Origin: Halorubrum sp. GN11_10-6_MGM
GTDB lineage: Archaea > Halobacteriota > Halobacteria > Halobacteriales > Haloferacaceae
Assembly: GCF_005435165.1 (NCBI RefSeq)
Contig: NZ_SGUC01000004.1
Coordinates: 1-64,000, forward strand
Direction of reading: 5' to 3'
Length of the DNA: 64,000 nt
Below are positions 7,678 to 51,636 of the stretch, one piece after another; position 1 is the first letter of the stretch, and each line of letters opens with the position of its first letter. The notes under the pieces were generated by a model. The model ran no database searches. It was not told the origin of the DNA and saw only the letters and a program-made list of their open reading frames with translations. The translations under genes and the position numbers were made by a program.

Positions 7678-7724
7678 GTCACCGCCTCGCGCGTCGGGGC
7701 GTTCGCCAGCGCTTCCCACGCCAC

Positions 7725-7782
7725 GCCGCGTCTCGCATCGCTTTTTACGCCGCGCCGCGTCTCGCATCGCTTTTTACGCCGC
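7725..7782. repeat. 29-bp direct duplication containing a core promoter
   Basis: Two perfect 29-bp copies (7725-7753 and 7754-7782), each containing TCGCATCGCTTTTTACGCC. The CTTTTTACG block has the look and position of a haloarchaeal TATA element: the second copy lies about 30 bases before the ychF start codon at 7800, the first about 59. The downstream gene may therefore have two tandem core promoters. Confidence 0.85.
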
Positions 7783-7799
7783 GCCGCCCACCGGTGGTA

Positions 7800-9387: not shown

Positions 9388-11105
9388 GGACGCTCGCCGG
9401 GGTCGGCAGCACGCCGCGCTCGGGGGTGGGAACGGCGCGCTGGTACCGTCCCGACGCCGACCTGACGCTCCCCGACCGTCCCGATCCGGACGCCGTCGAC
9501 GCCGAGGCGGAACTAGCGCGGTACGAGGCGGCCAGAGACGCGGTGCGGGAGGCCCTGCGCGACGCCCGGGACCGGACGGCCGAGCGCGTGGGCGAGGAGG
9601 AGGCGGCGGTGTTCGAGGCCCACGAGGGGTTCCTCGACGACCCGACGATAGTCGAGGACGTCGAGGCCGCGATCGACGACTGGACGCCAGCGGAACACGC
9701 CGTCGCGGACCGGTTCGACGAGGCGGTCGCGCAGTTCGAGGGGATGGAGGGCCGGATGGCCGAGCGCGCCGACGACCTCCGGGACGTCCGCGACCGACTG
9801 CTCCGCGCGCTCCTCGACGACGGGGGTGACGGACCCCCGGCCGCCGCCGACCTCGCCGCGCTCCCCGACGGAACGATACTGCTCGCGGAGCGGCTCACAC
9901 CGAGCGACACCGCCGCGCTCGACCCCGACGCGGTCGCCGGGATCGCGACGGTCGAGGGGGGTCGAACCTCCCACGCCGCGATCATCGCGCGGTCGCTCGC
10001 CATCCCCGCGGTCGTCGGCGTCGGCGGGGAACTCGAATCGGTCGCCGACGGCGAGACGGTCCTCGTCGACGGCGAGGCCGGCGAGGTCGTCGGCGACCCG
10101 GACAAGACGCAGCGCGCCGCCGCGAGAGAGTCCGGGCCGGACGCGATCCGCGAGCGCGTCGAGACCGACGACGGCCGCCCGGTCGAGGTCGCGGCGAACG
10201 TCGGCGGCGAGGCGGAGCTGGACCCAGCCGCCGAGCGCGGCGCCGACGGGATCGGGCTGTTCCGGACCGAGTTCCTCTTCGTCGACCGGGAGTCGCCCCC
10301 GACCGAGGACGAGCAGTACGCGGCCGTGACGGCCGCGCTGTCGGCGTTCCCGGACGACCGCGTCGTCGTCCGGACGCTGGACGTCGGCGGCGACAAGCCC
10401 GTCCCGTACCTCGATCTCCCCGACGAGCCCAACCCGTTCCTCGGGCGGCGCGGGATCCGGCTGTCGCTCGACGAACACGCCGACCTCTTCGAGACGCAGC
10501 TCCGGGTGCTGCTCCGCGCCGCGGCGACCGAGGAGGGTGACGGGCTCGCGGTGATGTTCCCCTTAGTCACCCGGGTCGAGGAGGTCGAGCGCGCTGTCGA
10601 CGCGGTCGAGTCAGTCGCGGCCGACCTCGCCGAGGAGGGAGTCGACCACGCGGTGCCCGAACTGGGCGCGATGATCGAGACGCCCGCGGCGGCGTTCCTC
10701 GCGGACGCGCTCGCCGAGCGGCTCGACTTCCTGAGCGTCGGGACGAACGACCTCGCTCAGTACGTGATGGCGGCCGACCGCGGGAACGACGCGGTCGCGG
10801 AGTACCACGACCCGCTCCACCCGGCGGTGGTACGCGCGCTCGACCGCACGACGGCGGCCGTCGAGGGGACCGACGCGTGGGTCGGCATGTGCGGCGAGAT
10901 GGCCGGCGACCCGGCGCTGACGGAGCTGCTGGTCGGACTCGGCTTCGACGAGCTCAGCATGAGCGCGGTGACGGTGCCGGAGGTGAAACGGCGGGTCCGC
11001 GAGGTCGACGCCGACGCCGCGGCGTCGCTCGCGAGCGAAGCCCTCGCCTGCGAGACGCGGGCCGAGGTGCTGGACGCGCTGGGGCTCGACGACCGCCCGG
11101 CGTAG
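9384..11105 (+). CDS. ptsI: PTS Enzyme I (PEP-protein phosphotransferase)
   Basis: A 573-residue Enzyme I. It autophosphorylates from PEP on the histidine in GGRTSHAAIIARS (about residue 197) and hands the phosphate to HPr. The N-terminal HPr-binding helical domain precedes this, and the C-terminal PEP-binding barrel shows GIGLFRTEFLF, RRGIRLSL, LGAMIETPAA, FLSVGTNDLAQY and the Cys in GMCGEMAGD. Start is GTG at 9384 inside the end of ptsH. Only general PTS proteins and dhaKLM are present here, so the visible acceptor is dihydroxyacetone kinase. Sugar EII components, if any, are elsewhere. Confidence 0.95.
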   Translation: MRTLAGVGSTPRSGVGTARWYRPDADLTLPDRPDPDAVDAEAELARYEAARDAVREALRDARDRTAERVGEEEAAVFEAHEGFLDDPTIVEDVEAAIDDWTPAEHAVADRFDEAVAQFEGMEGRMAERADDLRDVRDRLLRALLDDGGDGPPAAADLAALPDGTILLAERLTPSDTAALDPDAVAGIATVEGGRTSHAAIIARSLAIPAVVGVGGELESVADGETVLVDGEAGEVVGDPDKTQRAAARESGPDAIRERVETDDGRPVEVAANVGGEAELDPAAERGADGIGLFRTEFLFVDRESPPTEDEQYAAVTAALSAFPDDRVVVRTLDVGGDKPVPYLDLPDEPNPFLGRRGIRLSLDEHADLFETQLRVLLRAAATEEGDGLAVMFPLVTRVEEVERAVDAVESVAADLAEEGVDHAVPELGAMIETPAAAFLADALAERLDFLSVGTNDLAQYVMAADRGNDAVAEYHDPLHPAVVRALDRTTAAVEGTDAWVGMCGEMAGDPALTELLVGLGFDELSMSAVTVPEVKRRVREVDADAAASLASEALACETRAEVLDALGLDDRPA

Positions 11106-11122
11106 ACGGCTCCGGAAAAATC

Positions 11123-11138
11123 GGGGCGGCTCCGCCCC
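11123..11138. terminator. GC hairpin between convergent ptsI and dhaM
   Basis: GGGGCGG (11123-11129) can pair with CCGCCCC (11132-11138), closing a short loop between the two stop codons. It could end either transcript. No T-rich tract follows on the + strand, so the terminator role is weakly supported. Confidence 0.35.
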
Positions 11139-11563
11139 TACAGCTTCTCGATGTCGCGCGCCGCCTCCGCCTGCTCGCGCACGGACTCGACCGTGGCCGA
11201 CGGGTCGGTGGCCGCGACCGCCGCGTTGACCGCGCCTTCGAGGACGGGCGCGTCCGCGATGGCCGCCTCCGCGTCGCTCAGTTCGACCGCGACGTCCGCG
11301 TTCATCACCGCGCTGCCGAGGTCGACGAGGACGACGACGCCGTCCGCGTCGCCGTCGCTCTCATCGCCCGCGTCGCTCCCATCGGTGTCGCCCCCGGCCG
11401 CGTCCTCGATCGCCGCCTCGATCGCGTCCGGCACGGTTCCGATACCGCCCTTTCCGTCGCCGCCGACCGGTTCGATACAGGTGTCGCCGGCCATCTCCGC
11501 GGCGATCTCCGCGATCCCCTCGGCGGCGCGCTCGCTGTGCGAGACGACGACGATCCCGACCAT
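11138..11563 (-). CDS. dhaM: PTS-dependent dihydroxyacetone kinase, phosphotransferase subunit DhaM
   Basis: A 141-residue EIIA(Man)-like protein that carries phosphate from HPr to the ADP bound to DhaL. The phosphorylated histidine is in VVSHSERAAEG near residue 9, and VVLVDLGSAVMNADVAVEL is the second conserved block. Unlike E. coli DhaM it has no fused HPr or EI domains, which fits the separate ptsH and ptsI genes nearby. An Asp/Gly-rich linker near residues 55-70 interrupts the fold, probably as a surface loop. Its ATG overlaps the dhaL stop by one base. Confidence 0.92.
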   Translation of the reverse strand: MVGIVVVSHSERAAEGIAEIAAEMAGDTCIEPVGGDGKGGIGTVPDAIEAAIEDAAGGDTDGSDAGDESDGDADGVVVLVDLGSAVMNADVAVELSDAEAAIADAPVLEGAVNAAVAATDPSATVESVREQAEAARDIEKL

Positions 11564-12315
11564 CAGCTCTCCTCCGGGGCCGCGGCCGAGCCGTCGTCGG
11601 CCGCCCCGTCGGGGTCGTCGTCCGGGATCGTCGGCGACGCCGCGTCCGTCTCCGGGGCGTCGACGCCGAGCCGGTCCGCGGCGACCGCGAGCAGCTCTTC
11701 GAGGATGAACAGCGTGCTCGTCGCCCCCGGGTCTTGGTGACCGACCGACCGCCAGCCGAGGTAGGAGGCCCGGCCCTTCCGCGCGCGGATCGGGACGGTG
11801 AACGCGACGCCGCGCTCGGCGGCGTCGACCGCCTTCGTCAGCGCCTCGATCGGGTCGAGGTCGTCGACCTCGACCGACTTCTTGAACGTGTGGACCGCGG
11901 GCGTCAGCGCGTCCACCATCGTCTGGTCGCCGACGCGCGCGTCGCCGCGGTCCTCGACCTTCTCCAGGTAGGTCTCGGCGAACGCGACCGCGGTCTCCGG
12001 GGTGATTCCCCCGTCCAGCTCGCCCGCCGCGAACACGAGCGACCCGCCGAACAGCGGGCCGGAGGCGCCGCCGACCTCGGCCATCAGCGTCTTGCCGACC
12101 GTCTTCGCGACGGTCTCCGCGTCCGGGTCGTCGAGGTCGCGCGCCGCGTCGGCCGCCTCCGCCCAGCCGCGCGCCATGTTCCCGCCGTGGTCTGCGTCGC
12201 CGATGGCGGAGTCCAGCTGGGTGAGGTGGTCCCGTTCGTCCTCAAGTCGCTCGGCGACCGCCTCGACCGCGGCGACGACCGCCGCGCCGTCCTCCGTCGC
12301 TCGCTCCTCGGTCAT
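11563..12315 (-). CDS. dhaL: Dihydroxyacetone kinase ADP-binding subunit DhaL
   Basis: A 250-residue all-helical nucleotide subunit. It keeps ADP permanently bound and transfers the phosphate received from DhaM to dihydroxyacetone held by DhaK. The aspartates that bind Mg-ADP are seen in AIGDADHGGNMARGW (about residues 36-50), with GGASGPLFGG and DPGATS further on. The C-terminal 40 residues are acidic and low-complexity, a halophilic extension. The start ATG at 12315 overlaps the dhaK stop by 4 bases. The upstream in-frame residues come from dhaK DNA. Confidence 0.93.
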   Translation of the reverse strand: MTEERATEDGAAVVAAVEAVAERLEDERDHLTQLDSAIGDADHGGNMARGWAEAADAARDLDDPDAETVAKTVGKTLMAEVGGASGPLFGGSLVFAAGELDGGITPETAVAFAETYLEKVEDRGDARVGDQTMVDALTPAVHTFKKSVEVDDLDPIEALTKAVDAAERGVAFTVPIRARKGRASYLGWRSVGHQDPGATSTLFILEELLAVAADRLGVDAPETDAASPTIPDDDPDGAADDGSAAAPEES

Positions 12316-13310
12316 GTCGTCGTCAGCGCCGGGGTGTCGGCCGGCGCGTCGAACAGCTCCTTCAGCTCGTCGTCGACCGCACAGACCGTGATCGACGCGC
12401 CCGCCATGTCCAGCGAGGTCATGTAGTCGCCGACCCACGCGTCGTAGGTCTCGAGGCCGCGCTCGCCGAGCAGCTCCTGAAGACGGCGGTTGACGACGAA
12501 CAGCTCCATCTGCGGCGTGGCGCCCATCCCGTTGACGACCGTGAGCACTTCCTGTCCCTCGTCGAGGTCGAGGTCGTCGAGGACCGCGTCGGTCAGCGCC
12601 TCGGTGACCTCGTCCGCGGGCATCGTCTCGGTACGCTCGGTGCCGGGCTCGCCGTGGATACCGATGCCGAGCTCGATCTCGTCGTCGCCCAGATCGAAGG
12701 TGGGCTCGCCCTTCTCGGGGGTGACACAGGAGGTGAGCGCGGTGCCCATCGTGCCGACGTTGTCGACCACCTTCTCGGCGACGCGCTTGACCTCCGCGAG
12801 GTCGGCGCCCTGGGCGGCCTTCGCGCCCGCGGCCTTGTGGACGAGGATCGTCCCGCAGACGCCGCGGCGCCCGGAGGTGTACAGCGAGTCCTCGACGGCG
12901 ACGTCGTCGTTCACCACGACGCTTTCAACCTCCACGCCCTCCATCTCCGCGAGCTCGATGGCGGTCTCGAAGTTCATCACGTCGCCCTCGTAGTTCTTGA
13001 TTATCGCGAGGACGCCGTCGCCCGCGTCGCAGGCGCCGATCAGTTCCTCGAACTCGTCGGCGGTCGGCGACGAGAACACGTCGCCCGCGGCCGCCCCGTC
13101 GAGCATGCCGTCGCCGATGTACCCCGCGTGGGTCGGCTCGTGGCCGCTGCCCCCTCCGGTCACCAGCGCCACCTTCCCGTCGACCGGCCCGTCGTCGCGG
13201 ACGAGCACCTGCGTGTCCGGCAGGCGCCGCAGGCGGTCCGGGTGCGCCGCGGTCATCCCGTCGAGCATCTCGTCGACGACATCGTCCGGGTCGTTGATCA
13301 GCTTCTTCAT
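12312..13310 (-). CDS. dhaK: Dihydroxyacetone kinase substrate-binding subunit DhaK
   Basis: A 332-residue DhaK that binds dihydroxyacetone covalently as a hemiaminal through a histidine, here in GIGIHGEPG. The N-terminal half holds VTGGGSGHEPTHAGYIG and KNYEGDVMNFETA, typical of the K domain. First gene of dhaKLM, in the order K-L-M with overlapping codons, so one transcript is expected. The operon converges on ptsHI, which would supply its PEP-derived phosphate. Function: conversion of dihydroxyacetone, for example from glycerol or Dunaliella-type osmolyte breakdown, to DHAP. The ecological source is inference. Confidence 0.95.
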   Translation of the reverse strand: MKKLINDPDDVVDEMLDGMTAAHPDRLRRLPDTQVLVRDDGPVDGKVALVTGGGSGHEPTHAGYIGDGMLDGAAAGDVFSSPTADEFEELIGACDAGDGVLAIIKNYEGDVMNFETAIELAEMEGVEVESVVVNDDVAVEDSLYTSGRRGVCGTILVHKAAGAKAAQGADLAEVKRVAEKVVDNVGTMGTALTSCVTPEKGEPTFDLGDDEIELGIGIHGEPGTERTETMPADEVTEALTDAVLDDLDLDEGQEVLTVVNGMGATPQMELFVVNRRLQELLGERGLETYDAWVGDYMTSLDMAGASITVCAVDDELKELFDAPADTPALTTT

Positions 13311-13384
13311 GATCGTTGGTACCGACTCACGCTGACCGGTTAAACGTAGTGGGGGCCGGGGGTCGCCGCGTCGCTCGCCGAGGG

Positions 13385-13747
13385 TTAGTTCGGGTCGATA
13401 TCGAAGGTGCCGCACTCGCGACAGCGGAACACGCCGGCGTCGTTCCGATCGGGAACGCGGAACTCGTGGCCGTTCGAGCAGGCTCCGCCGTCGTCGAACG
13501 CCTCGGCGGCCGGGTCGAGGTCGACCGACTCGCAGGCCGGGCACGCGTACGTCCCGTTCCCCAACTCGGTCGGCGCGGCGAAGTAATGGCCCTTCAGACA
13601 GCGGCCACCGTTCTCGATCCCCTCCGCCCCCGGCGAGACGTTCTTCGCGTTACACCGCGGGCAGTAGTAGGTGCCGCCCCCGGTGCGCCCCGCCGACGCG
13701 AAGTGGTGGCCGTTCGAACAGGTCCCCGCGTTCTCGAACATGTCCAT
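13385..13747 (-). CDS. Triple zinc-ribbon protein of three repeated modules
   Basis: A 120-residue protein built from three modules of about 40 residues, each with C-x2-GH-x(n)-C-x2-C: CSNGHHF...CPRC, CLKGHYF...CPAC and CSNGHEF...CREC. Each looks like a metal site of one Cys, one His and a C-x2-C pair, with an acidic end (VDLDP, FDIDP). No other domain is present. Such proteins may bind nucleic acid or act as adaptors; I do not recognise a named family. Two close ATGs exist (13747 and 13741) and either would give the same modules. Confidence 0.8.
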   Translation of the reverse strand: MDMFENAGTCSNGHHFASAGRTGGGTYYCPRCNAKNVSPGAEGIENGGRCLKGHYFAAPTELGNGTYACPACESVDLDPAAEAFDDGGACSNGHEFRVPDRNDAGVFRCRECGTFDIDPN

Positions 13748-13856
13748 GCCCCGGCGGACGGCCAACCGCGGGATAAATTCCACCGGTCGATGTCGTTCCC
13801 GACTTCCGAAACGATGCGCGGTCGCCCGGCTCCGCGACGTCTCGCCCACCGTCGGG

Positions 13857-14063
13857 TCACAGGACCCAACTGGCGAGGACGCCGATCACCGCCGCCGCGC
13901 CGAGGGCGGTCAGCGCGCCGCCGACGAGCGGCGAGTCGGCGAGCAGCGGGACGCCGACCGCCACCCCCGCGAGACCGACGAGCAGGAGGAGGATTTTCAG
14001 GATAACGGTGGGGACGAACTCCAGGATGACGTCGAAGACGAGTTCGAAGATTTCGTCGAGCAT
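13857..14063 (-). CDS. Small two-helix membrane protein
   Basis: A 68-residue hydrophobic protein starting MLDEIFELVFDVILEF, with hydrophobic stretches at about residues 15-38 and 42-66 and almost no polar residues between. It is unusually rich in Leu, Val and Ala for this proteome. I do not recognise the family. The start at 14063 is preceded by an AT-rich stretch (CATTATTTTGAGGGC on the + strand) and there is no good alternative. It could be a small subunit or a membrane anchor for an unknown partner; nothing nearby identifies one. Confidence 0.6.
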   Translation of the reverse strand: MLDEIFELVFDVILEFVPTVILKILLLLVGLAGVAVGVPLLADSPLVGGALTALGAAAVIGVLASWVL

Positions 14064-14236
14064 TATTTTGAGGGCGTTTTTCGGTGGACGTTGACTGCTA
14101 AAAGTATTCGGTGGTTCGGACTCGGAACTCACGATGCGAAGATTGAGGGACCCCAAGGCGGCCAGAACCCACCGATACACGATGATACTCCCCGACGCGG
14201 ACGAAGCTATTTGATCGCTCGGAGCGATGCTCGAAC

Positions 14237-14686
14237 ATGGTCCTCAACCTACCGGACGACTTCGAAGCGCGGTTCTGGCGCCGTCACTCGAATCCAAAGA
14301 GCGGCTGGAGCCGCACGGTCCTGTTGCCGGCCCTCCTCTACGCCCTCTACCACCGGAACTGGCGACTCGCTGGCGCCGCGCTGCTCTTTACCGTCGCGAA
14401 CCCCGTCCTGTTCGCCCCGCCGGAAACCGACGACGCGTGGATGACCCGCGTTGTCCTGGCCGAGCGCTGGTGGACGCGAGAGGAGGACGCGGGCCTCCTC
14501 GATCGGGGCTACCCGAACGGACTCAACCTCCTCAACGTCCCCGTGTCGCTGTACGCGTTCGTCGCCGCGTATCGGCGGCGGCCCGTCCGCGCCGGCGTCG
14601 CGTGCGTGATCGCGATGGGGTTGAAGTTCTGGTACGTCGCCGCGCTGGTCCGACGGTACGACGCCGCCGAGGAGCGGGTGGCGTGA
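14237..14686 (+). CDS. Conserved haloarchaeal membrane protein (DUF6653-like)
   Basis: A 149-residue protein with a polar start (NLPDDFEARFWRRHSNPKSGW), three or four hydrophobic segments (around residues 27-60, 100-112 and 117-135) and a conserved-looking WMTRVVLAERWW segment between them. The arrangement matches small haloarchaeal proteins annotated as DUF6653, of unknown role. A TATA-like GCTATTTG lies about 30 bases upstream, and an inverted repeat (ATCGCT/AGCGAT, 14214-14228) sits between it and the start codon, so it would be in the short leader. Family assignment is by appearance only. Confidence 0.7.
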   Translation: MVLNLPDDFEARFWRRHSNPKSGWSRTVLLPALLYALYHRNWRLAGAALLFTVANPVLFAPPETDDAWMTRVVLAERWWTREEDAGLLDRGYPNGLNLLNVPVSLYAFVAAYRRRPVRAGVACVIAMGLKFWYVAALVRRYDAAEERVA

Positions 14687-14863
14687 CTGGCGGGGGTCGG
14701 TGTTCGGTCGGAAGCACGGTCGGCGTTCGTTAGCGTGGAACTGTGGCGGTTCCGCCGCGCTTCGACCTCGACGGTCGGGATCACGCACCTCCACCTCCCG
14801 CATCGAGGCCATCGTCGATCGCGGCGCTGCGCCCGCCTCAACACCCTCGTGCCAGACGGTCGC

Positions 14864-16063
14864 TCACGACACCGCGTCGCGGACCGCGTCGGGAACGTCC
14901 CGTCGGTCGGCCTCTCGAACCGACGAGCCGTCGGCGTCCGCGCCCCCGTATTTGTACCCCGACCCGGTCAGGATCACGGCGACGTCGTCCGCGGCGTCGA
15001 GTTCGCCCGACGCGGCGAGCTCCCGGACGGCGGCCGTCGCCACGGCGCAGGACGGCTCGACGGAGACGCCGGCGTCGGCCGCGAGCCGCTCCGTCTCGGC
15101 CAGCATCGCCTCCTCGGCGACCGAGACGACGCCGCCGTCCGTCTCCGAGACGGCCGCCAGCGCTCGGTTCCCGCTCGGCGGGTCCGCGTTGTTGATCGAG
15201 ACCGCCGCCGTCGGCTCGCCCGCGACCGGCTCGACGCGGGAATCCCCGCGTCGGTACGCCCGCGCGACCGGGTCACAGCGCGCGGCCTGTGCGAGGTAGA
15301 TCCGCGGGACAGACGGGAGCAGACCGGCCGCGGTCAGCTCGCGGAGCGCCTTCCAGACGCCGCTCGCCTGTCCGCCGCTGCTGACTGGCAAGACGATCGC
15401 GTCGGGAGCCTCGGGGGCGAACGCCTCGCAGATCTCGTACGCGACAGTCTTCTGTCCGGCCACCCGGAGCGGGGAGTCCGAGTTGAGGAACGCGACGCCG
15501 AGGTCGCGTTCGAGCGTGTCGTAGTAGAGTCGCCCGTACTCGCCGCGAACTCGGAACAGGTGCGGGTCGTGTTGGGCGATCATCGCGAGCCGGGCGTCCG
15601 GGGTGTCCTCCGCCACGAGGATGACCGCGTCCCGGTCCGCCGCGGCGGCGTGCGCGGCGACGCTCAGCGCCATGTTCCCGTGCGAGACGGTCCCGACCGG
15701 GCCGTCGACCCGACCGATGCCCACGGCGGTCCCCCGGTCTTTGAAACTCCCGGTCGGGTTGACGCCCTCGACTTTGAGATGGACCCGCGGGCCGTCAGTC
15801 GGTTCGATCGACGGCGCGCGAAACAGCGGCGTTCCCCCTGCGGCGGCGGCGAGGCCGGTTGGTGCCGTCGCGGGAAGCACGGACTCGTAGCGCCAGAGGG
15901 TGTCTCGCCCGAGCGAAACGGCGTCTTCCGTCGGGTTGCTCGCGTCGGGCCAGTCGAACCCGGCGGTGTCGGTCTCGAACCAGAGGGGCTCGCCGCACGC
16001 GCAGCGGGCCGCGTCCCCGAACGCGTACGTCTCGCCGCAGTCGTAACAGGTCAACCGGTCCAT
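14864..16063 (-). CDS. thrC: Threonine synthase (PLP-dependent)
   Basis: A 399-residue fold-type II PLP enzyme that makes threonine from O-phosphohomoserine. A small N-terminal zinc ribbon (CYDCGETY...CACG, residues 5-25) precedes the catalytic domain, where NPTGSFKDRG carries the PLP lysine. PVSSGGQASG binds the PLP phosphate and LTGSGYK closes the fold. The zinc-ribbon N-terminus is usual in archaeal threonine synthases. ATG at 16063 is followed immediately by the ribbon. No other threonine genes are adjacent. Some cysteate or related synthases share this fold, so the substrate is family-based. Confidence 0.88.
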   Translation of the reverse strand: MDRLTCYDCGETYAFGDAARCACGEPLWFETDTAGFDWPDASNPTEDAVSLGRDTLWRYESVLPATAPTGLAAAAGGTPLFRAPSIEPTDGPRVHLKVEGVNPTGSFKDRGTAVGIGRVDGPVGTVSHGNMALSVAAHAAAADRDAVILVAEDTPDARLAMIAQHDPHLFRVRGEYGRLYYDTLERDLGVAFLNSDSPLRVAGQKTVAYEICEAFAPEAPDAIVLPVSSGGQASGVWKALRELTAAGLLPSVPRIYLAQAARCDPVARAYRRGDSRVEPVAGEPTAAVSINNADPPSGNRALAAVSETDGGVVSVAEEAMLAETERLAADAGVSVEPSCAVATAAVRELAASGELDAADDVAVILTGSGYKYGGADADGSSVREADRRDVPDAVRDAVS

Positions 16064-16446
16064 ACCGCCCCCTCTCGGCCGGCGTACAAATGATTGGTTG
16101 CGGACCGTCGCAATTCTCGCCCCGCTGCGTGTACCGGAGTCGGAAGTACCGTCCGGCGCGTCCGATCGGCTTGTTCGGCCGAAGGACTTGAAGATCCTGT
16201 GCGCCCACTCGCCGTGGAAACCCCGCGAGTACGGCGTTCGATCGAGCCGCGCGCCCGCCCCTCCGAACGGTCACGGCGTCGGCATACGGGGACGGTGGAC
16301 TACGCAAAGATCGCCGTCCGTAGTGCCTGTTCCGGGTGTAGTACTGCCAGCAGTTCGCGTAAGCGTGAGGGAGGTCGAAGATTTCGCGTCGGAGTTCGCG
16401 GGCGGCCGCGGGGAGACGGTCGCCTTGCCGACGCACACAACTGTCG
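16064..16446. other. Gene-poor stretch, possible gene remnants
   Basis: There are 383 bases with no convincing gene. The thrC promoter is probably the CATTTGTAC block about 30 bases upstream of its ATG (minus strand). Open frames exist on both strands but have unlike codon use and no recognisable motif; one minus-strand frame reads LPHAYANCWQYYTRN, too short to assign. The stretch continues into a pseudogene and looks like decayed DNA. Confidence 0.5.
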
Positions 16447-16535
16447 TTACGAGCAGGTAAATCGGCCCAAGGCCAGCTCCGCGGCCACTCCCTCCTTGGT
16501 GAACGTGACCCTGACATCGTACTCGGCTTCGACCC

Positions 16536-16682
16536 CAACTGTCAGGCTGTCCCCCGGAACGAATCGCGAACGCTGCGTCGCCTCCAACTGTCAGGCTGTC
16601 CCCCGGAACGAATCGCGAACGCTGCGTCGCCTCCAACTGTCAGGCTGTCCCCCGGAACGAATCGCGAACGCTGCGTCGCCTC
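16536..16682. repeat. Three perfect 49-bp tandem repeats
   Basis: Units start at 16536, 16585 and 16634 and are identical. They lie inside the lipoprotein pseudogene and encode (minus strand) the block around RSRFVPGDSLTV. Because 49 is not a multiple of three, each copy is read in a different frame, and only 1, 4, 7... copies would restore the C-terminus. Confidence 0.95.
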
Positions 16683-17050
16683 GGCGAGCGTCGCTCCGTC
16701 GGTTGTAATGTCGGGGTCACTGCCCTCCGGATCCACTATGGTTCCGACGAACGCCAGTCTCTTCGCGGAAAGCGGTCCACCACCTTCATGTTTAACCGTC
16801 AGCACGCCGGTCTCGTCGCTGCGAGTCGCTGCCGAGTCGAACTCTGCTGCTAGGAAGACGGACGGGGGTCCAAGCGGCTCCTCGTCGATGATGAGCCCAC
16901 CGCCGACCAGAATCTGTTCGATGTACCACGCTTCTCTGGCTTCGGACATTCGAAAGGAGACCTCTTCCGTCCGCGATTTCCCTTGGTGCGCAATTGTGAG
17001 GGTTGTCTCGAGTATCACGTACGCGCTTTCTTGAGTCGTTCTCCGGAGAT

Positions 17051-17060
17051 CCCCCCCCCC
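17051..17060. other. Homopolymer run of ten C (G on coding strand)
   Basis: The longest homopolymer I noticed in the window lies in the lipoprotein pseudogene. Upstream coding is in one frame (IGEYTLERGG) and downstream coding in another (DLRRTTQESAYVI). Deleting one base, or adding two, would join them. It may be a slippage site, old decay or a sequencing error. Confidence 0.8.
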
Positions 17061-17310
17061 GCTCAAGCGTGTACTCTCCGATGTTGTCCGCTGTGAACCC
17101 ACCGCCGGCCCACGACCCTACGGATTCGTCCACTGCTTCGATGTTGTTCTCGTTCACGCCGGTGATGAACTGGTCGACAACCGCTTTCTGTGTCTGTAAC
17201 TCTCCGGACGAACCTCCGCTGAGTTACTTCGAATTCGCCGAGCAGCCGGTGAGAGCTACCATTGACAGGCTTCCCCCGGCCGTCAGAAACTGCCGGCGTC
17301 GATATGGCAT

Positions 17311-17669
17311 AGCGCGTACAAGTCGAGAGTAGGGCTTCAATCCACCGGGAAACGACGGGCCGTCGCCCGTTTTCGAAATGAGTGGGCGTTGTAGTCAGTC
17401 GCTAGTCTGGTGGTAGCTGTTGTGTCTCTGGTAATGAGTCGCACAGTAGTGTTCGAGGAGGCTCCGCTGCCGCTGCCGCAGTCGGGGCTACATCACGCCG
17501 AGATCATCTCGGTTAACCCGGATCGGGGGACGGTGGTGACTACCGGCTTAATTCTTGCCCGGACAAGACACGCTAGCGGTGTCTCTAGGGGAGTGGAACG
17601 ACGAAATTGGGTGGCTGGGGAGTCCCAGCCCACCAATCCCGCACGGCCAGAGACCGCGCGTTCAGTAGG
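17311..17669. other. Gene-poor stretch between pseudogene and tRNA-Ile
   Basis: There are 359 bases less GC-rich than the surroundings. A 92-codon + strand frame (17410-17688) has no family likeness, runs into the tRNA gene and is not credited. A GGCTGGG/CCCAGCC hairpin lies at about 17613-17633, downstream of the tRNA in its own direction. I see no attachment-site duplicate of the tRNA end. Confidence 0.5.
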
Positions 17670-17743
17670 TGGGCCAACACGGATTTGAACCGTGGACCTC
17701 CCGGTTATCAGCCGAGCGCTCAACCTGACTGAGCTATTGGCCC
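17670..17743 (-). tRNA. tRNA-Ile (GAT anticodon)
   Basis: A 74-base cloverleaf on the minus strand. The acceptor stem GGGCCAA/TTGGCCC closes it, the D-arm begins TAGCTCAGTCAGGTTGAGC, the anticodon loop is CTGATAA with anticodon GAT, and the T-arm has GGTTCAAATCC. The discriminator base is A. CCA is not encoded, as usual in haloarchaea. No intron is visible. It reads isoleucine AUC/AUU codons. Confidence 0.97.
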
Positions 17744-17845
17744 AGGTGAGCGCATTCAGTCGTTGCGCGGGTAGGATTTTAAGGGTTTCCTTTCGACAGC
17801 CGCCCGCCGTGTGGCGGTTTCACGTCCTCTCCAACGTCCGAGCCG

Positions 17846-18472
17846 TCAGTCGGTTCGCTGCTGCGTTTCGTCTTCGACCGTGTACTCCACGTCGACGACG
17901 TCGTCGCCGGCCGACGCGTCATCGTTCGCGGCGCCCGTCGACTCTCCGGCGGCGCCGGGACCGCCGGAACCGCCGCCGTCCTCCCCGCCGGGGAAGTCAC
18001 CGCCGTCGCCGGGGAACCCGCTGCCCATCGTGAACCCCCCCTCTCCGTCGTTCGGGAAGCCGCCGACGTACACGTTCCCGGAGAGGAACCCGTCCGTCTC
18101 GCGCTCGATGTACGGGACGACGACGTACTTCTTCAGGGCCACGCGGATCGGCACCCGCGAGAGCGGGAGCGCGAACAGGAAGCCGACCGCGTCGGTGACG
18201 AGCCCGGGGGTGAGCAGGAACGCGCCCGCGGCGATGAGCAGCCCGCCGTCGAGCAGCTCGTCGGTCGGTGGTTTCCCTTGCGCCGCCTTGCGTTGGATGC
18301 GCGCGAGCGTCGCGCGCCCCTCGGCGCGCAAGAGGAGCATCCCGAGGACGGCCGTCAACACGACGAGCGCGACCGTCACCGGCCACCCGAGCCGCGTCGC
18401 GACCACGATCAGAAACAGCGCGTCCACGAGGGGGACGACGAGGAGCAGCGCGAGCAGCGTTCGCGGGCGCAT
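17846..18472 (-). CDS. fxsA: FxsA family membrane protein
   Basis: A 208-residue protein. The first 110 residues hold the FxsA domain, with hydrophobic segments at about 5-25, 28-48 and 72-102 and the typical VTVALVVLTAVLGMLLLRAEG, then ELLDGGLLIAAGAFLLTPGLVTDAVG. The C-terminal 90 residues are Gly/Asp-rich and probably disordered outside the membrane. FxsA of E. coli suppresses F-exclusion of phage T7 when overproduced; its normal role is unknown. ATG at 18472 (MRPRTLLALLLV) begins the first helix directly. Upstream in-frame residues are Arg/Gly-rich and unlike coding. Confidence 0.9.
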   Translation of the reverse strand: MRPRTLLALLLVVPLVDALFLIVVATRLGWPVTVALVVLTAVLGMLLLRAEGRATLARIQRKAAQGKPPTDELLDGGLLIAAGAFLLTPGLVTDAVGFLFALPLSRVPIRVALKKYVVVPYIERETDGFLSGNVYVGGFPNDGEGGFTMGSGFPGDGGDFPGGEDGGGSGGPGAAGESTGAANDDASAGDDVVDVEYTVEDETQQRTD

Positions 18473-18696
18473 ACCCCCGCCTTCCCGCCGGGCGCCCATA
18501 GCCCTTTTCGTCGCGGCTGCGGAGCGGACGCGAATCCGGCCGTTCGCATCACCCAACTGCGCCGGTCGTTCGCCACGTACTCGCTGCGCCGGTCGAGAAC
18601 GCCGACGCTCGCCGCGATCGCCCCCCGCTAAACTCCCTCGACCGCCGCGACCGCCGCGACCGCCACGGCTTTGCCCGCCCGGTCCGAGCCGGCGGT

Positions 18697-19422
18697 ATGG
18701 ACATCCTCGGCGCGCTCGGACGCGACCCGCCGGACCGCGAGTCGCTGCCGCGGTGGGTCGCGCCGCTCCCGAAACGGCTGGAGGACATCGCCTTCCGGTT
18801 CGCGTGGCTCATCGTCGCGATCAACCTCGTCGGCACCGCCTTCGGCTTCTGGTACTACCGCTTCCAGTTTCGGGCCCTCCCGACCGAGATGTGGATCTTC
18901 ATCCCCGACAGCCCGGGCGCGACGCTGCTCATCGCGCTCGCGCTCGGCGCGTGGGCGCTGGGTCGGTCGAGCGACACCCTCGCGGCGCTCGCCTTCTTCG
19001 GCAACGTCAAACTCGGGCTGTGGACGCCGTACGTCCTCGTCGTCTTCTGGCCGGAGTTCCTCGCGGCCAACGGCCCGGCGCTGTACGCGTTCCTGCTGGT
19101 GAGCCACCTCGCGATGGTCGTTCAGGCGTTCGTCCTCCATCGGATCACCGACTTCCCGCTCCGCGCGGTGGCGGTCGCGACCGCGTGGTACACCGTCGAC
19201 CTGCTGATGGACTACTTCGTCCCCGTGATCGGCGAGGTGACGCACACCTCGCTGCCGTACGCCGACGGCGCGCCGTGGTTCACCACGACGGTCCTCCAGG
19301 TCGCGGCCGCGGGCGCGGTCGTACTCACCGTCGTCCCGCTGTTCTGGGCGCTCGGCACGCGGATCGCGACGCTCCGCGACCGCGGAGCGGACCCGGACCG
19401 CGAGTCCGGCTCCGCCGCGTGA
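18697..19422 (+). CDS. DUF1405 integral membrane protein
   Basis: A 241-residue multi-pass protein with seven hydrophobic segments. The segment LVGTAFGFWYYRFQ followed by PTEMWIFIPDSPGATLLIAL, and TAWYTVDLLMDYF further on, are characteristic of DUF1405, found in haloarchaea and Bacillus. The function is unknown. The charged N-terminus (PLPKRLEDIAF) is cytoplasmic by the positive-inside rule. It is divergent from fxsA with a 224-base gap that contains GC-rich sequence and no clear structure. The ATG at 18697 is the only good start. Confidence 0.88.
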   Translation: MDILGALGRDPPDRESLPRWVAPLPKRLEDIAFRFAWLIVAINLVGTAFGFWYYRFQFRALPTEMWIFIPDSPGATLLIALALGAWALGRSSDTLAALAFFGNVKLGLWTPYVLVVFWPEFLAANGPALYAFLLVSHLAMVVQAFVLHRITDFPLRAVAVATAWYTVDLLMDYFVPVIGEVTHTSLPYADGAPWFTTTVLQVAAAGAVVLTVVPLFWALGTRIATLRDRGADPDRESGSAA

Positions 19423-19462
19423 CGCGCCCCGATTTAAGTCGTCGCGTCGCCTCCGTTCACCC

Positions 19463-20509
19463 ATGAGTCTCTACGAGCGGATCGCCGACCTCCGGGTGAC
19501 GATCGAATCGGTCGACCGCCGGCGACACGTCGCGAACACGACGAGCGGGTTCGAGCGCACGACCACGGAGTACCGGCTCTCCGGCGACGGCGTCGTCGGC
19601 AAGGGGGAGGACGTGACCTACGAGACCGCCGACCACGACGCGCTCGCCGGGACCGATCCGATAGATCTCGAGGGGGAGTGGACGATCGACGGCCTCTCCG
19701 ACCGACTCGACGAGATCGACCTCTTCCACGGGCACTCGCCGGAAAGCGAGACCTCTCGAAACTACCGGCGGTGGGCGGTCGAGAGCGCGGCGCTCGACCT
19801 CGCGCTCCGCCAGCGCGGCGAGTCGCTCGGCGACGCGCTCGGGATCGACCCCGAGCCGCTCCGGTTCGTCGTCTCGACGCGGCTCGGCGACCCACCGTCG
19901 ACCGACCGCGTCGAGGTACTCCTCGCGCGCGACCCCGACTTGGAGTTCAAGCTCGACCCGACCCCCGAGTGGCCCGACGAGGCGTTCGAGACCCTCCGGA
20001 AGACCGACGCCGTGCGCGTCCTCGACCTGAAAGGCTGGTACGAGGGGACCGACGTCGACGTCGAGCCCGACCCGGAGCTGTACCGCGACGTGTTCGCGGC
20101 GTTCCCGGCCGCGGTCGTGGAGGACCCCGCGTTCACGCCGGCGACGGGCGCCTTGGTCGAGCCGCAGGCCGACCGCCTCTCGTTCGACTACCCGATCGAC
20201 GGCGTCGAGAGCCTGAAATCGCTCCCGGTCGAGCCCGGCTGGTGTAACGTCAAACCCTCGCGGTTCGGCACCCTCGAATCGCTGTTCGAGACGATCGCCT
20301 ACTGCGAGCGGGAGGGGATCGAGCTGTACGGCGGCGGGCAGTTCGAACTCGCGAGCGGCCGCACCGCGATCCAGACGCTCGCCGCGCTCTGTTACCCCGA
20401 CGGGCCGAACGACGTGGCGCCCCGCGCGTACAACGACCCCGACGCCGAGCCGCCGTACCCGAAGAGCCCGCTCCGCCCGAGCGGCGACGCGGTCGGCTTC
20501 GAGTTTTGA
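19463..20509 (+). CDS. Enolase-superfamily-like protein
   Basis: A 348-residue protein that resembles the enolase/mandelate-racemase fold in layout: an N-terminal capping part (residues 1-110, with EYRLSGDGVVGKGEDVTYE), then a barrel with VLDLKGWYEG near the second-strand position, VEDPAFTPATG and a C-terminal GQFELASGRTAIQTLAAL. The usual KxK and metal-binding Asp/Glu set is not plainly present: DLKGW has one lysine and the metal ligands cannot be placed with certainty. It may therefore have changed or lost the classical reaction. The ATG follows a 40-base gap after DUF1405, so the two may share a transcript. Confidence 0.7.
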   Translation: MSLYERIADLRVTIESVDRRRHVANTTSGFERTTTEYRLSGDGVVGKGEDVTYETADHDALAGTDPIDLEGEWTIDGLSDRLDEIDLFHGHSPESETSRNYRRWAVESAALDLALRQRGESLGDALGIDPEPLRFVVSTRLGDPPSTDRVEVLLARDPDLEFKLDPTPEWPDEAFETLRKTDAVRVLDLKGWYEGTDVDVEPDPELYRDVFAAFPAAVVEDPAFTPATGALVEPQADRLSFDYPIDGVESLKSLPVEPGWCNVKPSRFGTLESLFETIAYCEREGIELYGGGQFELASGRTAIQTLAALCYPDGPNDVAPRAYNDPDAEPPYPKSPLRPSGDAVGFEF

Positions 20510-20543
20510 GACCGCCGAACCGGACGGGTAGCTGCCCGACTAT

Positions 20544-20551
20544 TTATAAAT
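20544..20551 (+). promoter_or_regulatory. TATA box of candidate RNA copy B
   Basis: TTATAAAT lies 8 bases before GGTGGCGCG, as in copy A. It sits about 35 bases after the stop codon of the enolase-like gene, and the next annotated gene ahead (engB) is on the other strand, so this promoter has no protein gene to serve. Confidence 0.55.
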
Positions 20552-20559
20552 CGATCCGC

Positions 20560-20690
20560 GGTGGCGCGTGCCTGCGAGCGGTCGCCCACGGCGACCGCGA
20601 GACAGCACGCGCGAGGGAGTCAGTCGCCGGAGCGAAGCGACGGCGACTGACGAGGCTGGGGAGGTGTGAGGCTGCGGTTGCGGTGCGGGG
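20560..20690 (+). ncRNA. Candidate structured RNA element, copy B
   Basis: Order of blocks: GGTGGCGCG (20560-20568); outer inverted repeat GCGCGTGC/GCACGCGC (20564-20571, 20605-20612); inner hairpin of 9 bp with a CAC loop (20578-20598); linker CACGCGCGAGGGAGTC; second hairpin with 11-bp arms 20619-20629 and 20641-20651 and a GAGCGAAGCGA loop; tail GAGGCTGGGGAGGTGTGAGG (20652-20671). The stems differ from copy A at many positions but still pair. The start expected from the TATA box is near 20574, so the outer repeat may lie partly outside the RNA. Function and family are unknown. Confidence 0.5.
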
Positions 20691-20888
20691 GGGGAATCGA
20701 AGGGGCAGCCGCGAGGGCGAAGACGCGCGACGTAAGGACCGCAGGAGCGAACGCAGTGAGCGACGAGGACCGCAGCGAGCGCATCGAGTCCTCGCGGCTG
20801 GGGCTTCGGTGGTCGTGTTCTCGACAGCAACCGTGTCGTAACGACCGACTGAGACTTCGGTGGTCTCGTCTCGAACCGACTCAACCAC
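20691..20888. other. Structured spacer between RNA element B and engB
   Basis: There is no gene. It holds further inverted repeats, for example CGAGGAC (20764-20770) with GTCCTCG (20788-20794), and CGGCTGGGGCTTCGGTGGTC, which is loosely like the element tail. It may be a decayed partial copy of the element or its 3' end. Confidence 0.4.
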
Positions 20889-21509
20889 TTAAGAGACGAA
20901 CTTCAGCAGGTCGTCGCGGTTGTGGTCGTGGAAGCGCGTCCGGAGACACTCCTCTAACGCCTCGATGTCGCCGCGCTTCGCGCAGATGGGCGCCACGCGG
21001 TCGGACCACTGCTGCCACGGCGGGTACAGCCCCAACCGATCGCAGATCTCGTCGAGCCGCTCGTCGAGGTCGTCGATCTTGTCGGTCTTGTTGACGGCGA
21101 CGATGGGCTCGACGCCCACGTCCTCCAGGAAGCCGAACATCTCCACGTCGTGGGGGACGTTCCCGCGCTCGGCGTGGCGGTCGATGATGTCGACGGCGGC
21201 CTTGCCGTCCATCACGACGACGCCGGCCAGAATGGAGTCGGCGTTCTCCTCTAGGTAGCGCACGATGTCGGTCTTGATCTGCTCGCGGTGCTCCTCCTCG
21301 ACGCCGGACATGAACCCGAATCCGGGCAGGTCGGTGAACATGAAGCTCTCGCTGGCCCAGTCGAAGTGGTTCGGCTGCCGGGTGACGCCCGGCTTCCCGC
21401 CGGTCGAAAAGTCGTGGCCCGTCAACTCGCGCATCAGCGTGGACTTGCCGACGTTCGAGCGTCCCACGAGGACGACCTCGGCGTCGCGGTCCGGCCGGTC
21501 TTCGAACAT
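20889..21509 (-). CDS. engB: GTP-binding protein EngB
   Basis: A 206-residue single-domain GTPase of the EngB/YihA family, which assists assembly of the large ribosomal subunit. G1 is GRSNVGKST (about residues 16-24), G3 is DLPGFGF and G4 is NKTD, with [14 protein letters not shown]-like G5 surroundings (ICAKRGD). The segment [16 protein letters not shown] before G3 is the usual switch region with the G2 threonine. ATG at 21509 gives [19 protein letters not shown]. The longer in-frame extension upstream overlaps the divergent gene's promoter and is rejected. Confidence 0.95.
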
Positions 21510-21588
21510 ACCCGACCGTGCGCGCCTGAGCGGGTTAAAAGGCGCGTCGCGGCGGCGGCTACTTACCAGTGCCCCGCCACGGACCGAC

Positions 21589-22338
21589 ATGGACAAGCAG
21601 GCAGTTCGCGAGGCGGTGTGGGACGCCTTCGACGCGGGCGACCAGGCGCGGTTCCCGTTCCCGCCCCACGACCGGATCCCGAACTTCGCCGGCGCCGACG
21701 ACGCGGCGGAGCGACTCGCGGCGACCGAGGCGTGGGCGCAAGCCGCGACGCTGAAGGCTAATCCCGACGCGCCACAGCTGCCGGTCCGCCGGGCCGCGCT
21801 CCGCGCGGGCAAGACCGTCTACGTCGCGCAGCCGCGGCTCCGCGATCCGGACCCCTTCCTTCGGCTCGACCCGGCCGACGTCCCGCCCGACGAGATCGAC
21901 GACGCCACGACCGTCTCCGGGATCTCCGAGTACGGGACGCCGACCGCGCCCGAGGACGTCGCTGCCGTCGACCTGATCGTCGCCGGCTCGGTGGGCGTGA
22001 CGACCGACGGCGCCCGGATCGGCAAAGGCGAGGGGTACAGCGACTTGGAATGGGCGGTCCTCCGCGAGCTCGGCGCGGCCGACGAAGCCACGACGGTCGC
22101 GACGACCGTCCACGAACTCTCGGTGCTCGACGGCCCCGAGTCCGCGGTGGGCACGGAGACCGACCTCCCCGAGCCCGACGCGCACGACGTGCCGCTCGAC
22201 CTCGTCGTGACGCCCGAGCGGACGGTCCGCACCGACACGCCGTACGCCCGGCCGGCCGGAGTCGATTGGGACGCCCTCGACGCGGAGAAGCTGTCGGAAA
22301 TCCCCGTCCTCGCGGAGCGAGCGCCCGAAAGAGAGTAG
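21589..22338 (+). CDS. 5-formyltetrahydrofolate cyclo-ligase family protein
   Basis: A 249-residue member of the 5-FTHF cyclo-ligase (MTHFS) family, which converts 5-formyl-THF with ATP to 5,10-methenyl-THF. The conserved block [20 protein letters not shown], matching the family's GxRxGxGxGYYD region, lies near residues 142-160, and the N-terminal [20 protein letters not shown] is the substrate/ATP region. Archaeal members are somewhat longer than bacterial ones. It is divergent from engB with a 79-base gap. Activity in haloarchaea is not proven for all paralogues, so specificity is family-level. Confidence 0.85.
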
Positions 22339-22354
22339 ACGACGGGTATCCGTC

Positions 22355-22436
22355 CGCGTGTCGGCGGTCAGTTCGCGTGTCGGCGGTCAGTTCGCGTGCC
22401 GGCGGTCAGTCCGCGTGCCGGCGGTCAGTCCGCGTG
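22355..22436. repeat. 19-bp tandem repeats (four units and a start of a fifth)
   Basis: Units of CGCGTG(T/C)CGGCGGTCAGT(T/C) start at 22355, 22374, 22393, 22412 and 22431. The array begins 16 bases after the cyclo-ligase stop and runs into the last codons of the convergent zinc-ribbon gene, whose stop (TCA on the + strand, 22425-22427) lies in one unit. Related CGGGCGGTCAGCCG copies occur at about 23969-24014. Confidence 0.9.
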
Positions 22437-22628
22437 CTGCGGCGTCGGCGCCGACCGCTCGGAGCGGTGATCGGCGACGTGACCGCACTCCGGACAGACG
22501 ATCGTGCGCTCGTCGCCGTCGCTGACGACGAGCCACCCCTCCGACAGGGGGCTCTCGAAGCGACACTCCGGACAGAAGAGGACCGACTTCCCGCGGGAGG
22601 GCGGGGAACCGCTGGCGTCTGCGTTCAT
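22425..22628 (-). CDS. Small zinc-ribbon protein
   Basis: A 67-residue protein with two C-x2-C pairs, FCPECRFESP and VCPECGHVADH, about 25 residues apart, forming one zinc ribbon. The core WLVVSDGDERTIVCPECG is like many small haloarchaeal zinc-ribbon proteins of unknown function. A strong Shine-Dalgarno (AGAGGTGA) lies about 5 bases before the ATG and a TATA-like CTTATAGC further up, so this gene, unlike many here, has a leader. Its 3' end lies in the 19-bp repeat array, which may have altered the last residues (PTPQHAD). Confidence 0.75.
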   Translation of the reverse strand: MNADASGSPPSRGKSVLFCPECRFESPLSEGWLVVSDGDERTIVCPECGHVADHRSERSAPTPQHAD

Positions 22629-22826
22629 GGTTCACCTCTAGAGCCCGAGCTATAAGGGTCTTTTTCGACCTGATCGTTCAGTATGATCGGGTTTCACACA
22701 CTGGGTTGTCGATCAAACTGGAGTAAAACAGATCGATTATTTCTAAAAACAGAGTATTTTTGATCGGTATCTGTCACCATCGTTTCGGAGACACCGGCTG
22801 CGGGCGTCGGCCCCGTCGCCACAGCG
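22629..22826. promoter_or_regulatory. AT-rich upstream region of the zinc-ribbon gene
   Basis: The 198 bases are much richer in A/T than the neighbourhood, holding the promoter and Shine-Dalgarno of the leftward zinc-ribbon gene and the 3' flank of the RaSEA gene. TGATCG or CGATCA words recur (near 22669, 22684, 22712, 22731 and 22760), spaced irregularly, which may be chance or operator sites. Confidence 0.4.
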
Positions 22827-23921
22827 TTATCGCGCCAGCGGCATGTTGTAGCTCGTCTCCTCGTCCATCACGTACTCCCACGTCGCCTCGCACTCGCAGG
22901 TCACCTGCTCGAAGACGCTCGGGTCCTGCCGCCTGTCGAAGTCCTTGATCGCGGTCTGGACGCGGTCGTCGCACTCGCCGCAGTTGTGCGCGCCGCGGTC
23001 GGAGCCGTGCCCGACGGGGTCGGAGACGACGATGGCGTCGGCGTCGGCCGTCTCCGCCAAGACGTGCGCGACCGACCAGAGCCACGGCGGGCGGTACCCC
23101 CCCTCGAAGAACAGCTCGTCGACCATCGTGTACCGCTGGACGTTCGTCGGGTTCATCGAGACGGTGTGACAGCCGTCGACGTCGGCACAGCGGCGGATCG
23201 AACTGATCATGTCGGCGGCGGCCTCCGGCTCCGCGAGGAACGGCGGCTTCATGAGGAGGTACGCCTTGATCCCCACGTCCGCGTCGAACTCGCCGTCGGC
23301 CGCGGCCGCCTCGGCGCAGGCGTCCTCGAAGTCGGCGAAGTCGAAGTACTTGTTCACGCAGTCGTGGCGCACCCGGTCCGTCGCGGTCTCTAACCCGACC
23401 GCCACGTCGGTGGCGATCCCGTACTCCGCGAAGTCGGCGATCTTCTCGCGGTCGACGAAGTCGGGAAGCGACTCGACGACGATCCGGTCGCGGTCCGCGA
23501 ACGTCTCGGCGATCGCTCGCCGGGTCTCCGCGGACACCTCGCGCTCGTCGAGGAAGGAGCCGGAGGTGTAGATCTTGATCAGCTCCGCGGGTTCGTCCGC
23601 CTCCTCGGCCTCGTGGTCGAGGCACGCGTCGATCTGGGTCATGAGGTCCTCGTGAGCGACGCTGCCGCCCTCGACCGACTCGGCGACGTACCCGCACATC
23701 GTACAGCCGCCGGCGCGGGCCCAGCGGCACCCTCCTGTATTGAGGATGATAGTCAGGGAGTTCACCACGCCGTCCGGCGTGTTGTCCTCGTCGATCCACA
23801 CGCGCGTCGGCTCCGTCGGGTCGTACGTCTCCGAGCGCTCGGCGCGGATGTCGCGCATCACGGCGTTGTGCGCGTCCATCCCGCGCCCCTGCTCGTACGC
23901 TCCGGGGCTCGGCTGACTCAT
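22827..23921 (-). CDS. Archaeosine biosynthesis radical SAM protein RaSEA
   Basis: A 364-residue radical SAM enzyme. The 4Fe-4S site is in NTGGCRWARAGGCTMCGY (residues about 63-80), with a wider cysteine spacing than the classical CxxxCxxC, as in the RaSEA family that works with ArcS to form archaeosine at position 15 of tRNA. IKIYTSGSFLDEREV and VGLETATDRVRHDCVNKYF are conserved parts of the barrel. C-terminal cysteines (CGECDD, CECEA) may bind another metal. Two Mets occur near the start; 23921 is the longer. ArcS and tgtA are not in the window. Confidence 0.88.
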   Translation of the reverse strand: MSQPSPGAYEQGRGMDAHNAVMRDIRAERSETYDPTEPTRVWIDEDNTPDGVVNSLTIILNTGGCRWARAGGCTMCGYVAESVEGGSVAHEDLMTQIDACLDHEAEEADEPAELIKIYTSGSFLDEREVSAETRRAIAETFADRDRIVVESLPDFVDREKIADFAEYGIATDVAVGLETATDRVRHDCVNKYFDFADFEDACAEAAAADGEFDADVGIKAYLLMKPPFLAEPEAAADMISSIRRCADVDGCHTVSMNPTNVQRYTMVDELFFEGGYRPPWLWSVAHVLAETADADAIVVSDPVGHGSDRGAHNCGECDDRVQTAIKDFDRRQDPSVFEQVTCECEATWEYVMDEETSYNMPLAR

Positions 23922-24046
23922 TGTCTGGAGGTGCGGCCGAGCGCGTAAAGCGGTGTCGTCATCGCTGACCGGGCGGTCTCAGGCGGTCAGCCGTCGACGG
24001 GCGGTCAGCCGCCGACTGAGGACGAGTCCGTGCTCCCGTTCGACCC

Positions 24047-35082: not shown

Positions 35083-36138
35083 ATGCCCGCGGACGACGCC
35101 GACACCGAGGCCGACTCGGAGCCCGCGAGCGACGAGTTCGACCCGGCAAGCCATCCCGGCGACCTCGCGAGCGACGGCGGCGACGGTGCGCGGGAGGTCT
35201 CCGACGCGCTCCCCCGGTCCGACGACCAGCTCGCCGAGGCGGTCGAGACCGCGCTGTCGGGGCGGTCCGAGGTCGTCGCGGTCGGCGTTCCGATCCGGCT
35301 GCTCCCGGCGGTGCTGGCGGCCCGGGTGCGCTCGTCGGGCGCGCCGTGGCGGATCGCGTGTCGTCCCGGCGTCGTCGACGCGCTCTCCCGGGCCCTCGTC
35401 CTCGGCACCGCGGTCGCGGAGGCGGTCGAGCGCGACGAACTCCGGGTCCGGACCGGCGAGCCGTTCGGGCACGGGACGGGGGGAACGCTGTTCGCGAGTC
35501 ACGACCGCGCCGACGTCGTCGTCGGTCCCCGCGGGGAGCGGTCGCTCGCGACGACCGCGGTCGACTCCGATACGGGTACCGACTCGTGTGCCGAGGCCGT
35601 CGCGGGCGCTCACGCGGCCGCCGCGGCGCGCTTCGACGCCGCGACGGTCGACCCCGTCGGGATGCCCTCGCGGAGACGGTTGCTCGCGGCCGCGCGGGCG
35701 ACGCTCGACGACCGCTTCGCCGACGACCTCGCGACCGTGCTAGCGTCGCTCCCGCCCGGCGAGTTCGGCCGCACGACCGAGCCGTCGGACCGGACGCTCC
35801 TCGTCGCGCTCGCGGCCCGGCACGACCACCTCTTCCGCGACCTCCGGACGTGGGTCGGCGTCGACGGCGTCGGGATCGCCCCGGGACAGGAGTTCACGGG
35901 CGACCGGCAGGCGCTCGTCAATCGGGAGCTCATCGAGTCGATCAAGGTACCGATGGGTCCGGGACGACCGATGCTCCGGCTCCGCGCGGTCGACGACGGG
36001 CTGCTCCGCGCCCGGGCCGAGGAGGTGCCGAGCGTCCTCCGGGGGCGGTTCGAGCTGCCGACCGACGCGGACGGCCGGGTCCGGAACGACGCCGCCCGCG
36101 GCGAGCGGCGGCCGGTCTGGGAGCGGCGGCGGTTGTGA
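35083..36138 (+). CDS. TbsP-like (DUF5821-type) winged-helix regulator, probable
   Basis: A 351-residue acidic protein. Residues 50-180 form an alpha/beta domain (VVAVGVPIRLLPAVLAARVR ... WRIACRPGVVDALSRALVLG). Residues 235-325 look like a winged helix (RTLLVALAARHDHLFRDLRTW ... VNRELIESIKVPMGPGRPMLRL). The same two-domain plan is found in the haloarchaeal DUF5821 family, to which I believe the transcription factor TbsP belongs; that link comes from memory. A regulatory role fits, but targets are unknown. The N-terminal 45 residues are disordered and acidic. Confidence 0.6.
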   Translation: MPADDADTEADSEPASDEFDPASHPGDLASDGGDGAREVSDALPRSDDQLAEAVETALSGRSEVVAVGVPIRLLPAVLAARVRSSGAPWRIACRPGVVDALSRALVLGTAVAEAVERDELRVRTGEPFGHGTGGTLFASHDRADVVVGPRGERSLATTAVDSDTGTDSCAEAVAGAHAAAAARFDAATVDPVGMPSRRRLLAAARATLDDRFADDLATVLASLPPGEFGRTTEPSDRTLLVALAARHDHLFRDLRTWVGVDGVGIAPGQEFTGDRQALVNRELIESIKVPMGPGRPMLRLRAVDDGLLRARAEEVPSVLRGRFELPTDADGRVRNDAARGERRPVWERRRL

Positions 36139-36205
36139 GTCCGGGGACGCGACGCGGCGCCCCGACGTGACAAGAACTAACTCTCGGCGGCGCCCCCGGA
36201 ACTGT

Positions 36206-51504: not shown

Positions 51505-51636
51505 GATCGACCGACGACTGCGATCGACCGACGACTGCGATCGACCGACGACTGCGATCGACCGACGACTGCGATCGACCGACGACTGCGATCGACCGAC
51601 GACTGCGATCGACCGACGACTGCGATCGACCGACGA
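51505..51636. repeat. 17-bp tandem array (seven units and a part)
   Basis: GATCGACCGACGACTGC starts at 51505 and repeats every 17 bases to 51623, with a 13-base part ending at 51636. It begins directly at the acetyltransferase stop; the gene's last bases (CCGACGACTGA) match the end of the unit. No spacers, so it is not a CRISPR. The GATCGA part carries the GATC palindrome. It lies 76 bases before the helicase gene. Confidence 0.95.

Follow-up and report, generated by a model that had tools for sequence, protein, structure and literature searches.

A gene of Halorubrum sp. GN11_10-6_MGM that resembles genes for surface lipoproteins is interrupted at three sites, two of them prone to slippage. 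This raises the question of whether the gene is switched on and off by changes in tract length or is dead. It lies on the minus strand at 16447..17310 of the window, the 64,000-nucleotide stretch of contig NZ_SGUC01000004.1 that we analysed, with its ATG at 17310 and its terminal stop at 16449-16447. An in-frame TAA forms codon 29 (17224..17226, minus strand), right after the lipobox region. A run of exactly ten G (17051..17060, minus strand) shifts the frame, and the coding frame upstream of the run differs from that downstream. A 49-bp unit occurs three times, all copies being perfect (16535..16682, minus strand; exact copies starting at 16535, 16584 and 16633; 100% match in TRF). The 98 bp added by the array are not divisible by three, and the final coding piece lies in a third frame. 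The first-pass annotation had listed these three lesions, and both the lesions and their positions were correct. Alignment to intact orthologues over the whole length demonstrated that the pieces are certainly coding, and relative to these homologues the lesions are disabling, making the gene a pseudogene. Its identification draws on 74–76% amino acid identity to the orthologues over the longest piece, piecewise alignment of the rest and the modelled fold of one orthologue.

A search for intact orthologues, proposed in the same annotation, yielded two. One is in the congener G025 (L003:7660-8418, plus strand) and the other in Halosegnis rubeus, a member of another family (G415; L022:8043-8807, minus strand). 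Both are single-copy and are 74% and 76% identical, respectively, over the searched piece, which represents the second half of the gene. With the same piece, the pseudogene was found to be single-copy in its own genome. DNA identity to the orthologues is ~80–81%, with similarity beginning ~60–90 bp upstream of the ATG. In both orthologues the G run is shorter or interrupted, and the 49-bp unit is present once in each. Because the orthologues are without these tracts, both slippage-prone sites are private to the broken copy, having arisen in its lineage only.

Matches to the gene were obtained in 2/52 genomes of the genus, 5/170 of the family and 23/392 of the order, mostly remote (E limits of 1e-3, 1e-3 and 0.01, respectively; own genome included). 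More distant two-domain relatives, with an architecture similar to that of the two intact lipoproteins, are present in a few other haloarchaeal genera. Scanning genome contigs with the window piece gave no match, and scanning them with an alignment of the family gave Halosegnis rubeus as the sole match.

As judged from sequence and a structural model, the intact protein is a predicted Tat lipoprotein in which an NTF2-like domain precedes a type IV pilin head. In sequence, the twin arginine and the lipobox cysteine C23 are invariant in all five aligned intact proteins, and in the pseudogene RRR...LTGC marks the Tat signal and lipobox. The Tat lipobox of the first-pass annotation is thus readable as a motif, but the Pfam TAT_signal profile stays under its cut-off (14.2 versus 22.7 bits). 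The Tat route is described as that used by most predicted haloarchaeal lipoproteins (PMC2945643). The family shares with these the twin arginine and the lipobox; it differs in that the window copy is broken and in that Pfam and NCBIfam searches of the intact relatives returned nothing above cut-off.

In the G025 model, residues 30–142 form an NTF2-like domain and residues 144–252 a pilin head that fits the type IV pilin 8fj5_A of Haloferax volcanii (Z = 13.2, rmsd 1.4 over 93 residues, 24% identity), confirming the pilin-like C-domain annotated earlier. Model confidence is middling (pLDDT 72.9, pTM 0.52), with residues 1–33 unreliable, and the fold reading is based on domain-wise alignment, not on the whole-model Foldseek ranking. 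Penicillin-binding proteins, the top Foldseek rows for this model, were set aside at an rmsd of 17–21. While the head fold is common to both, the lipoprotein family differs from the Haloferax volcanii pilin in the absence of the prepilin signal and of a hydrophobic N-terminal helix leading into the head; it has a lipobox signal and then the NTF2-like domain before the head. Remote sequence matches to the C-terminal part (L015, L016, L017, L019 and L020) resemble ordinary pilins with the usual N-terminal helix, as judged by the pilin motif. In L014 and L021, longer lipoprotein-like frames combine a different N-terminal part with a similar pilin-like C-terminal part, a pattern which suggests that the head may be a reusable module.

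The pseudogene lies among scraps of other genes. Its start lies ~360 bp downstream of tRNA-Ile(GAT) (17668..17743, minus strand), after which the DNA varies among congeners. An intact gene for a thrC-like PLP enzyme forms the other flank (14864..16063, minus strand; PF00291; 86–89% identity in congeners). In the congeners G022, G010 and G048, the thrC-like gene follows tRNA-Ile after ~200 bp and the site is empty, with ~31 bp in G022 against ~1.4 kb of extra DNA in the window genome (16099..17514). Each recognised gene piece in this gap is broken. At the tRNA end, ~32 bp match the start region of a DUF7563 gene in congeners (17482..17513, minus strand), probably a remnant; a DUF7563 gene follows tRNA-Ile in 5 of the 12 longer congener stretches fetched. 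At the thrC end lie two scraps, both on the minus strand. The first, from an Orc1/Cdc6-like AAA ATPase gene (16329..16434), has 27 recognisable codons, with 79% DNA identity to copies in G045 and G006 and 74% identity over the 27 amino acids; its family was assigned from the G045 protein. The second, from a D12-class DNA adenine methyltransferase gene (16101..16276), is itself frameshifted, with protein pieces in two frames and 76–79% DNA identity to G045, G038 and G037 (PF02086 in the G045 protein). Both genes are whole in G045, where the stretches matching the scraps are ~1.5 kb apart. The G045 genes are adjacent (L062:2356-4657), at a distance of ~20 kb downstream from the tRNA-Ile match, and probably belong to an integrated element of which the window retains scraps.

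The close relatives of the pseudogene also lie beside tRNA genes, and for all three close copies a tRNA or tRNA repeat is found less than 400 bp upstream of the gene start. In G025, the tRNA upstream of the intact gene is a tRNA-Trp with an intron, and a 16-bp stretch of its 3′ end is repeated in the interval before the gene. In Halosegnis rubeus, a tRNA-Gly adjoins a tyrosine integrase gene (PF00589), and this tRNA and a 60-bp perfect copy of its 3′ part bound a 13.5-kb element (L022:9012-16001 and L068:1-6631). The lipoprotein gene lies outside this element, starting ~200 bp past the distal 60-bp repeat. The element carries what look like genes for a type I restriction system, a putative assignment. 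For the distant relatives L023–L025 (15 kb each), ARAGORN found no convincing tRNA nearby, only two doubtful long-intron calls in L025. We took these two as spurious, together with a tRNA-Gly call in the window (35252-36283) and a tRNA-Glu call in L003; the L003 tRNA-Trp was accepted.

tRNA genes are described as the usual integration sites in archaea (PMC8371274), and partial tRNA duplications and deletion-coupled insertions are described for Haloquadratum proviruses (PMC3119063). The Halosegnis rubeus relative shows the tRNA site, partial tRNA repeat and integrase of archaeal integrative elements of the tyrosine-recombinase type, and the window has remnant genes. The window locus differs from such elements in keeping scraps only. 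Against delivery by such an element, a search for the vehicle found no relative among plasmids, phages or IMG/VR, no tRNA repeat longer than 11 bp within window positions 10001-24000 and no tblastn match of the Halosegnis rubeus integrase in the window; the lack of a convincing tRNA near L023–L025 counts in the same direction.

Sequence identities point to transfer between families. The lipoprotein piece is 74% identical to G025 and 76% to G415, at odds with thrC (87% and 53%, respectively) and a YchF-type GTPase (97% and 74%). The lipoprotein gene thus departs from the species tree and has passed from one family to another. Local GC, 0.585–0.64 compared with a window mean of 0.70, also speaks for horizontal transfer. 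A vertically inherited resident gene of the genus was rejected on the same pattern and on its presence in only 2/52 genomes.

Taken together, the evidence makes it very probable that this is a passenger gene, acquired by horizontal transfer and inactivated recently, in a graveyard of mobile-element remains that separates tRNA-Ile from thrC. The gene would have arrived on one or more elements that used the tRNA-Ile site, and most of the incoming element DNA would then have been deleted. No longer needed, it may have lost its frame through a single point mutation and two slippage events during replication.

The time of death was estimated from 247 codon columns, lesions excluded. On the window branch, dS is 0.323 and dN 0.115, giving a dN/dS of 0.35 (bootstrap 95% 0.23–0.55), which is not above that of the intact branches (difference −0.06, −0.30 to 0.18). 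Given this constraint, selection acted on the gene along most of the branch, and the break came late. That the three 49-bp copies are identical likewise indicates a late event. Against decay, the absence of relaxation would also be expected if some cells of a population kept the gene on.

That last point bears on the suggestion of the first-pass annotation that the locus resembles a phase-variable surface gene. Here, slippage of the G run and the 49-bp array, both prone to it, would toggle a surface lipoprotein, and the sequenced clone would be an off state. The intact protein, resembling a surface lipoprotein with a pilin head, and the purifying selection still visible on the branch would fit such a gene. 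A homopolymer run and a repeat array in a surface-protein gene are also features of bacterial simple-sequence contingency loci. However, the pseudogene differs from these loci in two respects. The TAA at codon 29 lies ahead of the domains and is irreversible by slippage, so that not every off state could be reversed by a change in tract length; because it separates the signal peptide from the rest, the length of either tract makes no difference. Ordinary translation of this gene cannot yield a protein that carries both the signal peptide and the pilin domain. In addition, neither tract is kept in the orthologues, 2/2 of which have one 49-bp unit and no long G run.

The host genome also argues against switching. 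Runs of at least nine G are not rare by chance in the window (2 matches versus 1.19 expected from shuffling), and scaling the window shuffle rate to the genome gives an expectation of ~62 matches. Only 11 matches at 9 sites occur in 3.32 Mb; this scarcity shows that G-run switching is no habit of this genome. Poly-G runs are described as generally under-represented in prokaryotic genes (PMC2831843). Judged by a crude choice of ORFs, four other near-perfect arrays in the window, at 17-159 (35 bp × 4.1), 7718-7787 (29 bp × 2.4), 22352-22437 (19 bp × 4.5) and 51494-51636 (17 bp × 8.4), are intergenic or overlap gene ends that are doubtful. Their positions suggest that such arrays tend toward apparently unselected DNA, and the 49-bp array behaves likewise. 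The copy number of the four might serve as a strain marker. Among the titles searched on haloarchaeal phase variation, none concerned a slippage-switched haloarchaeal chromosomal gene. With the neighbouring genes reduced to scraps as well, phase variation is left as a very improbable reading, and the alternative raised by the first-pass annotation, final decay, is the one that the irreversible stop, the tract-free orthologues and the scraps support.

Sequencing or assembly errors in a working gene could have produced some of the lesions, and we rate this just as improbable. The assembly is a draft in 200 contigs, and G10 runs are error-prone on some sequencing platforms. Nonetheless, an exact triplication of 49 bp and a stop of the substitution type would be two different sorts of error within one 864-bp gene, and neighbouring genes, that of the thrC-like enzyme among them, have clean reading frames. 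Least plausible of all, and to be given hardly any weight, is continued use of a shortened, soluble or cytoplasmic product from an internal start: a 186-codon open frame does take in most of the pilin head together with the latter half of the NTF2-like part, but it has no signal peptide, it begins in a different frame from the real gene and its end lies in frameshifted repeat sequence.

The case is a real and explained one of ordinary decay, and it removes one candidate for archaeal phase variation. It also illustrates the gain and loss of a rare surface gene at a tRNA-side insertion site. As to the living family, we offer as speculation, with a low chance of being right, that it may be mobile cargo that settles beside tRNA genes and anchors a pilin head to the surface by a lipid, for example as a dock for pili or a decoy against pilus-dependent viruses or adhesion, the host here having later discarded the gene. 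With its lipid-anchored pilin head and NTF2-like domain, this family is a more interesting by-product than the dead copy and might deserve a study of its own.
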